Source: Brachyspira aalborgi (lineage in GTDB: Bacteria > Spirochaetota > Brachyspiria > Brachyspirales > Brachyspiraceae). Taken from it: a DNA stretch of 64,000 bases. Both the position numbers and the translations under genes were made by a program. The notes under the pieces are model-generated. The model did not search any database, was not told the DNA's origin, and saw only the letters and a program-made list of their open reading frames with translations. The stretch is from the NCBI RefSeq assembly GCF_008016455.1, contig NZ_SAXU01000001.1, positions 868,001-932,000 of the forward strand, in the 5' to 3' direction. The stretch's first letter is position 1. Every line of letters begins with the position of its first letter. Below are positions 32,883 to 35,346 of this stretch, piece after piece.

Positions 32883-33812
32883 TTATTCAATATATTCCTC
32901 AATGCCTTTTGTTGAAGTTTTCCAAGTTATACCATATTTCCAATTTTTCACATCGCAATATTTACAGAAAGGTATCGGTTTCGCTAAAAATTGTAGAATT
33001 TCTTGATAATTTCTTGCTTTATGTATATCAATATAATCATTAACGCTTATCGGAATATTTTTATTAAAAAATTTATTAAAATGTCTTATATTTGAAGGTA
33101 AAGAACATGTATATAATTTTCCATTATCTAAAAATATGCAACTATTTGCTAAATTACAATTTCTAAAATTATACTCTGGATTTTCTTTTCCATCCAAATT
33201 TAGCATATGTTTATAGCTAGTCTTAATAATATTTTCATCATTAAAAAATTGTAATTTTATATTCATGTCTTTACAAATTTCTTTTATTTTATCCCAATCT
33301 ATTTTTATCGGGTATTTTGTCGGCGCTAAAGTAATATTATTATCTTTCATTGATTGCCAAAAGCTATTATCTTGTTTCAATAATAAAATTCCATTTGTAA
33401 TTAATTTTATTTCGGTTTTATCAAAATATTTCCTTGCAATTTCAAAAAATCTTTTTATATTAGGATTTAATAAAGGCTCGCCTCCAATTAAATGAATTGT
33501 ATTTACTTCTCCGTTAGATAATTCGGATAGTCTTTTAATATCTTTTTCAAACACTTCAATATTTGTAAATTCCGGTTCTGCTAATTGGGAGAAATGGTCA
33601 CAACATTGACAATTAAGATTGCAATGTTCCACCAAATGTATATCTATAAAATCTATATTCGCTTTAGGAGTTATTTTATTAAATTGGAAATTAATTAAAT
33701 CATGCTTTGCTCTAATACTTTCAAAAAAATCTCTAACTTTGTCTCTTAATTTTCTATTTGGTATCCACCAAACTATATTATCTATCGTTTTTTTAATATC
33801 TTTGTCATTCAT
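32883..33812 (-). CDS. Radical SAM protein with C-terminal auxiliary Cys cluster and N-terminal VWxIP motif
   Basis: The 309-residue radical SAM enzyme has the cluster motif CxxxCxxC in EHCNLNCQCCDHFSQLA (residues about 63-70), the glycine-rich HLIGGEPLLNPN and later strand motifs (IKLITNGILLL). C-terminal cysteines in NCNLANSCIFLDNGKLYTCSLP and PFCKYCDVKNWKYG form a SPASM/Twitch-like auxiliary cluster site. Its first 25 residues read IDNIVWWIPNRKLRDKVRD, the same tag as in the genes at 11727 and 34094. Genes of this class in glycan loci act on sugars or lipid-linked groups, but the substrate is unknown. GGAG lies seven bases before the ATG, and the upstream region is a candidate invertible promoter. 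Confidence 0.88.
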   Translation of the reverse strand: MNDKDIKKTIDNIVWWIPNRKLRDKVRDFFESIRAKHDLINFQFNKITPKANIDFIDIHLVEHCNLNCQCCDHFSQLAEPEFTNIEVFEKDIKRLSELSNGEVNTIHLIGGEPLLNPNIKRFFEIARKYFDKTEIKLITNGILLLKQDNSFWQSMKDNNITLAPTKYPIKIDWDKIKEICKDMNIKLQFFNDENIIKTSYKHMLNLDGKENPEYNFRNCNLANSCIFLDNGKLYTCSLPSNIRHFNKFFNKNIPISVNDYIDIHKARNYQEILQFLAKPIPFCKYCDVKNWKYGITWKTSTKGIEEYIE

Positions 33813-33828
33813 TTATTTCTCCAGAATT

Positions 33829-34046
33829 AGTTAACATATTGCTTATTATAGGAACATAAATTATTAAATTATGATTAAATTATACTTAATTTTTTGATAA
33901 ATGATTATTTTTTATAAATTAATACTCAGAAAATGATACAAATAAATTTATATTCAACTGTTGATATTTTATTTTTTGTATGTTATAATGAATTTTATTA
34001 TAAATTATTGAGGTTGCATATTCCGATAATAAGCAATATGTTAACT
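33829..34046. repeat. 26-bp inverted repeat enclosing a 166-bp segment with a promoter (candidate invertible switch)
   Basis: The left arm 33829-33854 (agttaacatattgcttatta...) and the right arm 34021-34046 are reverse complements at 25 of 26 positions. They flank 166 AT-rich bases. The left arm lies directly upstream of the ribosome site of the radical SAM gene. The enclosed sigma-70 promoter points rightward at present. This is the geometry of a site-specific DNA inversion switch, though a simple hairpin or small mobile relic remains possible. Confidence 0.75.
33961..33989 (+). promoter_or_regulatory. Sigma-70 promoter inside the inverted repeat, oriented away from the radical SAM gene
   Basis: TTGATA (33961-33966), 17-base spacer, TATAAT (33984-33989). 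In the present orientation it would transcribe rightward, antisense to the GT11-like gene. Inversion between the flanking arms would place it at about 33914-33886 on the minus strand, driving the radical SAM gene with a leader of about 67 bases. Confidence 0.65.
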
Positions 34047-34093: not shown

Positions 34094-35089
34094 TTATAAA
34101 GAATTTATATTATCGGGGCTTATTACTATGATATTTTTATTTTTATTAAACATATAAGCGGCTTTTGAAAACGCGCCAATAGTAAATATCATATGTTTTG
34201 ATGAAGACATTAAATACATATCAAAATATACCGTATCTTTATTATCGTTATTAGAGTAAGTATATTCTACTTCTTTCTTCAAATTTATTAATATATTATT
34301 TTTTACCCAATTCATATCGTTTGAAAAGAAAAAGAATTTAGGCTTTATCGGTTTTAATTTTTCTATCATTAAATAAATAGATTTAAAAATATATTCTTTA
34401 TATATAGAATCGTTATTTTTAAATACCGCAAATCCGCCATGCGCTTTAATATCTCCTCTTCTAATATGAACGGCTACCGATGCAGGATGATTAATTATTT
34501 CGTTATGAATAACCAAATTATCGCCTTCAAGTCTATGAAGCAAATGTTTATCAAGGTCAAGTTTTTCTTTTATTTTTTCAAAATCATGATTTAATGGAAG
34601 CGGATAACCGTCAAGATATATATTCTTCATTTTTTTGATATAATTATCTATAGGATACCAAGTTTCGTCTTTAACATAGAATAATCTTTTATACATTTCA
34701 ATCTCATCTTTTGTAGCTATTTCTATATCTAAATCGGGAAAACAATTAGTTAAATCAAAAATTCTTTTTTCTTTTCCCAAAGCATCTTTACCCCAATTTA
34801 AATGCCAAGTAATATCGTATTTTATCCTTACATTATCATAATTTTGTTTAATAGATTCTCCAATAAAATATTTACCCAACTGTCCCGTAAATCCATCACT
34901 TTGCCATATTATAATAGTTCTTTCGTCTTTATCGCTTTCTGCCGAATTATTTTTATTCATTAAATATTCTACTTTATAAGCGGTATTTACAATATCGTTA
35001 AGAATATTTCTCATATTATCTCTTTTGCTCTTTTTGGGTATAATCCAAACTAATTTATTTACTAGGTCTGTATAATTTTTATAAAGCAT
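34094..35089 (-). CDS. Glycosyltransferase family 11-like (alpha-1,2-fucosyltransferase-type) with N-terminal VWxIP motif
   Basis: The 331-residue protein carries the GT11 hallmarks: DGFTGQLGKYF (residues about 65-75, equivalent to the G-x-G-N-Q-x-F-Q-Y loop), the GDP-sugar-binding motif AVHIRRGDI (207-214), FFFFSNDMNWVK and MYLMSSSKHMIFTIGAFSKAAYMFN, equivalent to the terminal motif of the family. These enzymes transfer fucose, or a related sugar, to surface glycans. Residues 8-30 (TDLVNKLVWIIPKKSKRDNMR) show the tag found in the genes at 11727 and 32883. An AGAGG site precedes the ATG. The promoter and leader repeat mirror those of the methyltransferase gene. Confidence 0.8.
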   Translation of the reverse strand: MLYKNYTDLVNKLVWIIPKKSKRDNMRNILNDIVNTAYKVEYLMNKNNSAESDKDERTIIIWQSDGFTGQLGKYFIGESIKQNYDNVRIKYDITWHLNWGKDALGKEKRIFDLTNCFPDLDIEIATKDEIEMYKRLFYVKDETWYPIDNYIKKMKNIYLDGYPLPLNHDFEKIKEKLDLDKHLLHRLEGDNLVIHNEIINHPASVAVHIRRGDIKAHGGFAVFKNNDSIYKEYIFKSIYLMIEKLKPIKPKFFFFSNDMNWVKNNILINLKKEVEYTYSNNDNKDTVYFDMYLMSSSKHMIFTIGAFSKAAYMFNKNKNIIVISPDNINSL

Positions 35090-35236
35090 AATTTATACCT
35101 CTAAATAAAAATAGATAACTCAATAAATATTTGAATTTATAAAAATAATGACAATATATATAATTTAATGTATATGCATATATAAATAAGTTTTTATTTT
35201 TTGAAAAGTATTTTAAAAAATTTAAAATTATATTAA

Positions 35237-35275
35237 TTGGCGATTGGCGATTGGCGATTGGCGATTGGCGATTGG
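35237..35275. repeat. Heptanucleotide tandem repeat (ttggcga), about 5.5 copies
   Basis: Five perfect copies of ttggcga (35237-35271) plus a partial copy. It lies about 43 bases downstream of the promoter's -10 box on the minus strand and 148 bases before the GT11-like start codon, in the transcribed leader. The unit sequence differs from that at 12.7 kb, but unit length and placement are the same. Confidence 0.95.
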
Positions 35276-35317: not shown

Positions 35318-35346
35318 ATTATAGTATATAATAAATGATTTGTCAA
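35318..35346 (-). promoter_or_regulatory. Consensus sigma-70 promoter for the GT11-like gene
   Basis: On the minus strand: TTGACA (35346-35341), 17-base spacer, TATAAT (35323-35318), both perfect. Just beyond it lies a 10-base inverted repeat, acgcttaaaa (35356-35365) / ttttaagcgt (35412-35421), of unknown role. Confidence 0.7.

Follow-up and report, generated by a model that had tools for sequence, protein, structure and literature searches.

Promoter inversion is normally accompanied by an invertase of its own, and XerCD recombination at the dif site of E. coli normally needs FtsK. Two described systems bear on the locus considered here. Acinetobacter plasmids carry XerC/D sites in pairs of opposite orientation, and those pairs whose centres are identical undergo reversible inversion (PMC9947245); in Ureaplasma the XerC enzyme that operates a switch is distinct from CodV, the protein that binds dif (PMC3599477). 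In the literature searched, no promoter inversion has been described in Brachyspira, and no phase-variable switch has been attributed to the dif-resolving chromosomal XerC/XerD acting at dif-like sites. We describe here a promoter-bearing module in a 64-kb stretch of Brachyspira aalborgi DNA (C1:868001-932000, hereafter the window; the genome is 2,504,147 bp in 8 contigs). With a probability of roughly three in four, we consider it to be a phase-variable promoter that would be inverted by the housekeeping XerC/XerD recombinases at private copies of dif.

The Inverted Repeat and Its Promoter

The initial annotation of this DNA had pointed to a 26-bp inverted repeat around 166 bases, and the repeat stands up to scrutiny: its arms at 33829-33854 (plus strand) and 34021-34046 (minus strand) match at 25 of 26 positions and can be extended to 30 nt at 93% match. 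Allowing up to three mismatches, the arm pattern occurs at two places only in the window, against an expectation of 0 from 100 shuffles, and at four places only in the whole genome, which form two pairs, each 218 long. No comparable inverted repeat occurs elsewhere in the 64 kb, where the others found are of low complexity or weaker. The 166 bp contain no ORF, and there is no Rfam match.

Between the arms lies one good promoter, TTGATA-N17-TATAAT with an extended -10 (TGTTATAAT; 33961..33989, plus strand; 10.7 bits), which points away from the radical SAM gene, as first claimed, and is conserved in a second copy of the module at C1:696208-696425 that has the ON orientation. Equally in keeping with the original description, according to which the minus strand offers -10-like hexamers and no fitting -35, the best match directed toward the gene reaches 5.8 bits without a real -35 (CGGAAT). 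Promoter-like matches overall are not in excess (26 here versus 26.8 in shuffles), and the weight of the argument consequently rests on the quality and conservation of TTGATA-N17-TATAAT. Were the module inverted, 73 bp would separate the end of the -10 from the radical SAM ATG, close to the 75 bases or so estimated at the outset. These features support the view that the module in the window is in the OFF state, with its promoter facing away from the radical SAM gene; that the module actually inverts, and that the gene is silenced when it is OFF, is what we infer from them.

The candidate controlled gene encodes a radical SAM protein of 309 aa (32883..33812, minus strand; Pfam PF04055). Its ribosome-binding site, GGAG at 33819..33822 on the minus strand (leader AATTCTGGAGAAATAAATG), lies just outside the gene-proximal recombination site, much as the annotation had the left arm ending immediately upstream of the ribosome site. 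The protein begins with an N-terminal tag, IVWWIPxRKLRDKVR, of a type common to about 26 genes of the B. aalborgi genome. In the form IVWWIPxRKxRD, this tag precedes many otherwise unrelated glycan-type enzymes at some 26 places (for example, 33714-33812 and 34991-35089 of the window) and may be a common docking or membrane-association segment. Near C1:581500 (L136:1474-3075), a glycosyltransferase-like domain is joined to a radical SAM domain that shares about 73% identity with the radical SAM protein of the window, an arrangement that suggests a role for the radical SAM enzyme in glycan assembly.

Upstream of the radical SAM gene and on the same strand lies a GT11-like glycosyltransferase gene (34094..35089, minus strand; PF01531), itself preceded by a sequence match to a perfect-consensus promoter, TTGACA-N17-TATAAT (35318..35346, minus strand). 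A terminator was looked for between the GT11-like and radical SAM genes and none was detected. Given this arrangement, read-through into the radical SAM gene could leak, and in the OFF state expression may be lowered without being abolished. In the present orientation the module promoter reads antisense into the 3' end of the GT11-like gene, and it may be speculated that this could make the switch reciprocal. Between the consensus promoter-like sequence and the start of the GT11-like gene, positions 35236-35275 hold a perfect 7-bp tandem repeat (ATTGGCG x5.7), a possible slipped-strand expression switch adjoining the invertible one.

Arm Sites and the Chromosomal dif

As an addition to the earlier description, the recombination site proper comprises 28 bp of each arm, 33829-33856 and 34019-34046. 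The gene-proximal site (33829..33856, minus strand) consists of an XerC half TGTTCCTATAA, the centre TAAGCA, and an XerD half ATATGTTAACT on the radical SAM gene side, and its half-sites match the single-copy Brachyspira dif. The distal site (34019..34046, plus strand), in the opposite orientation, consists of TATTCCGATAA, the centre TAAGCA, and ATATGTTAACT. The proposed invertible segment between them (33857..34018) is 87% identical to the inner segment at C1:696208 and 83% identical to that of a B. catarrhinii module (C110).

A relaxed pattern applied to the whole B. aalborgi genome gives the common form of the arm family as GTTAACATA-N7-TTATNGGAA, and a third pair was thereby found. Read on the other strand, the arms are TGTTCC[GT]ATAA, N6, and [AT]TATGTTAACT, which is the 11+6+11 layout of dif (TGTTCCGATAA-TGTATA-TTATGTTAACT). 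The arms thus combine two 11-bp half-sites in partial dyad, a 6-bp centre, and a match to the dif of the host, as expected of an Xer/dif-type site. At its first position the XerD half has A in the window module and several others, as against T in dif.

A dif-like match is present in 25 of 26 Brachyspira genomes, nearly all of which have one GTTAACATAATA[CT]ACATTATCGGAA with the centre TGTATA or TGTGTA, and this near-universal single site is taken to be the chromosomal dif. The single B. aalborgi copy lies at C1:420717. In one complete genome (G010), the sampled GC skew is mostly positive on one side of dif and mostly negative on the other, which supports a position of dif at the terminus; in G009, the sampled skew gives no clear placement. 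The position of dnaA was dropped as a guide to the terminus, dnaA not lying opposite dif in the assemblies examined. The published B. aalborgi assembly used an incomplete draft as the reference for its ordering, which makes any distance from a module to dif unreliable.

Unpaired sites also occur. Two lone near-matches in B. aalborgi, at C1:754282 and C1:969052, have no partner site. Two other Brachyspira species carry lone related sites, GTTAACATTTGGTT[CT]ATTATCGGAA, apart from dif (G008:C2:94976-95000 and G011:C63:34280-34304), which are perhaps Xer-integrated elements. Likewise, phage-like contigs constitute the only yield from IMG/VR and bear lone dif-like sites, TTCCTATAATAAGNATTATGTTAAC (L142:445-469, L143:9166-9190), that are probably attachment sites for Xer-dependent integration.

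Distribution and Recombinases

Across the genomes and spacings searched, by means that miss pairs with very different spacing or, outside the genus, divergent half-sites, only B. aalborgi and B. catarrhinii proved to have paired sites. No module turned up at one mismatch or fewer in the remaining 24 Brachyspira genomes. A collection of 84,980 genomes, which may omit the genome of the window itself, yielded the paired-site pattern at the same spacing in B. catarrhinii only, and a pattern of paired XerD halves applied to 393 Spirochaetota genomes returned, besides B. aalborgi and B. catarrhinii, just one hit in an unrelated genome; this hit has no XerC half and looks like chance. No such sites accompany radical SAM homologues in other species, the other WWIP-tag genes of B. 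aalborgi have no modules beyond those reported here, and the plasmid collection gave no relevant match and no plasmid copy of the module.

The B. aalborgi genome, which is 99.99% complete, encodes exactly two tyrosine recombinases (PF00589), and no serine recombinase (PF00239) was detected in it; the census consists of these two Pfam models, which an unknown recombinase class would escape. One of the two is XerD (TIGR02225, above the curated cut-off), and the other is XerC-like, with XerC as its best family match (score 277 versus 335 bits, below the curated cut-off). Both appear, on inspection of their translations, to keep the R-K-H-R-H-Y catalytic set. The suggestion that a recombinase would act in trans can therefore now be made specific, XerD and the XerC-like protein being the only candidates found. 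The accompanying advice to search for recombinase genes beside further arm copies is of no use here, as the xer genes lie elsewhere on the chromosome. Given that the arms copy the half-sites of the cell's own dif, housekeeping XerC and XerD are economical candidates.

A dedicated recombinase was considered for B. aalborgi and rejected, no cognate recombinase gene having emerged from the PF00589 and PF00239 searches beyond those of the two Xer proteins. The wider form of this idea, in which the promoter is invertible but is flipped by a dedicated or mobile-element tyrosine recombinase that resides on a plasmid or prophage, is absent from the assembly, or has been lost to leave a frozen switch, is unlikely. 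Most known promoter inversions do use a dedicated enzyme, with PsrA of S. pneumoniae, the vpma recombinase of M. agalactiae, and XerC of Ureaplasma as the Xer-family cases, and one further integrase match, truncated or divergent, is present in B. catarrhinii (C775). However, a private invertase would have no need of arms that match the organism's own dif half-sites, a genome of such completeness has only its two Xer proteins, and many other Brachyspira possess extra integrases yet have no modules.

Related Modules

The initial reading of the locus as an invertible promoter gains support from four more complete modules and one truncated module, which occur in both orientations and, where complete, have equal centres within each pair. 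In B. aalborgi, the OFF module of the window is accompanied by one at C1:696208-696425, which has the same total length (218 bp) and whose promoter faces its gene (ON), and by another at C1:137675-137890, which is OFF and has the promoter TTGACA-17-TAAAAT. B. catarrhinii Z12 (G002) has two complete modules, one ON (C107) and one OFF (C110), each with the centres ATAGCA/ATAGCA. A sixth module, also in B. catarrhinii, stands before a family 2 glycosyltransferase gene, has the centre ACAATA, and is cut by a contig end (C158; L055:3640-3728); the break inside it may stem from repeats or from a mixture of orientations in the assembly.

The centres of the three B. aalborgi pairs are TAAGCA/TAAGCA, TAAGTA/TAAGTA, and TGTAGA/TGTAGA. 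Centres are equal within all five complete pairs and different between most pairs, and among the 945 random pairings of the ten arms only 3 match throughout. The half-sites, unlike the centres, vary within pairs, so that equality is limited to the very bases that Xer strand exchange needs to be alike. A single strong promoter (10.7-13.7 bits) stands at one end of each module; three of these promoters face away from the gene and two face it. In all five, the distance from the -10 to the start codon, in the present or the inverted state, is 33-76 bp, and 4-19 bp lie between the site and the start codon in every module; the AGGAA ribosome site at C1:137864 is part of the recombination site. A promoter inside inverted recombination sites and next to a start codon is the anatomy of an inverton.

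The module at C1:696208 is 89% identical to that of the window, and the gene-side flanks and gene starts of the two are homologous as well (69% over 120 bp versus a shuffled maximum of 60%), both genes beginning MNDK and carrying IVWWIPxRKLRDKVR. The far-side flanks are unrelated. Relative to the homologous gene starts, the module at C1:696208 is inverted with respect to that of the window. Both orientations are seen only at paralogous loci, with one genome per species, and this opposition before homologous gene starts is the nearest available thing to a direct record of inversion.

Another reading takes the modules to be small mobile elements (MITE-like, or of dif type) whose promoters point outward and which inserted either way without flipping in place; the homology of whole modules at three loci in two species (84-89%), together with the unrelated far-side flanks, speaks for it. 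Nevertheless, this explanation seems improbable. The terminal repeats are complete dif-like sites, and inspection of the flanks reveals no target duplication of the kind that marks a MITE. The pair at C1:137675 encloses unrelated inner DNA and has arms that face the other way, yet it preserves the same anatomy. Further, every module keeps its close spacing to a start codon, and the three promoters of five that face away make little sense for a fixed promoter insertion. A chance or structural inverted repeat without recombination, such as an RNA hairpin or a set of regulator binding sites, is very improbable indeed: in a genome of 28% GC weak inverted repeats are common, and GTTAAC is palindromic by itself, but the shuffles, the two genome-wide pairs of equal length, the matching of centres within pairs, the want of an Rfam match, and a 166-base loop unsuited to an attenuator or terminator all argue against it, and the paralogous modules already disfavour it.

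The genes behind the other modules also look like surface-glycan enzymes. The gene at C1:696445 encodes a methyltransferase-like protein (a weak match, below the Pfam cut-off), and that at C1:137895 a DegT-type sugar aminotransferase, followed by a NeuD/PglD-type acetyltransferase. Downstream in B. catarrhinii are a broken WWIP/radical-SAM-like frame, a group 1 glycosyltransferase, and a family 2 glycosyltransferase. Their domain families point to a surface-glycan role for the genes adjacent to the modules. A sugar aminotransferase gene at C1:133072-134157 (L019:73-1158) ends in a long (REEKR)n codon run, a tandem repeat in the DNA that may be a contingency locus.

Proposed Mechanism and Implications

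In promoter inversion by the housekeeping recombinases, XerC and XerD would bind the two half-sites of each 28-bp arm, strands would be exchanged in the identical 6-bp centre TAAGCA, and, with the sites facing each other, the 0.2-kb segment between them would flip. One orientation would drive the radical SAM gene (ON), and the present one would point away from it (OFF). With several modules before glycan-type genes, the consequence would be reversible, combinatorial variation of surface glycans. The centres in B. aalborgi differ from that of dif and among modules, which would prevent cross-recombination. On balance, we lean toward the broader proposition that the B. aalborgi/B. catarrhinii lineage has turned private dif copies into promoter switches worked by housekeeping XerC/XerD, in which the 6-bp centre would serve as an address relative to dif and, mostly, to other switches, and by which glycan switching would be coupled to the Xer machinery, and possibly also to FtsK and cell division.

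Phase variation at several loci would thus appear to draw on dimer-resolution sites and recombinases, with the 6-bp centre as a testable address code. If true, this would provide a mechanism for surface variation in a human colonic spirochaete that is hard to manipulate. More broadly, inverted pairs of dif-like sites with equal centres may offer a simple bioinformatic rule for finding switches in other bacteria.

Comparison With Known Systems

The modules share with the invertons of other bacteria, such as fimS of E. coli, the capsule promoters of Bacteroides, and cwpV of C. difficile, a promoter or regulatory segment between inverted repeats that would turn surface genes ON or OFF. Those systems use dedicated invertases, whereas here housekeeping XerC/XerD are the sole candidates and the arms are copies of dif. 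The Xer switches of mollicutes (vpma of M. agalactiae, and mba of Ureaplasma by XerC) similarly join an Xer-family recombinase, DNA inversion, and surface variation. In contrast to the modules described here, however, they depend on a single dedicated Xer-like enzyme, dif in Ureaplasma being bound by CodV (PMC3599477), and they act on surface-protein genes instead of flipping small promoter modules.

The chromosomal dif/XerCD dimer-resolution site has the same 11-bp XerC half, 6-bp centre, and 11-bp XerD half, and the half-sites of the modules are nearly identical to those of the species' own dif. The sites of the modules differ in being paired, inverted, 0.2 kb apart, several per genome, located before glycan genes, and furnished with other centres. 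The pXerC/D (pdif) modules of Acinetobacter are likewise bounded by oppositely oriented Xer sites with equal centres, as found here, and invert reversibly using host XerC/XerD (PMC9947245, PMC13141974). Unlike the gene-carrying, plasmid-moving modules of Acinetobacter, those of Brachyspira are chromosomal, contain a promoter only and no gene, and are proposed to act as a switch of transcription.
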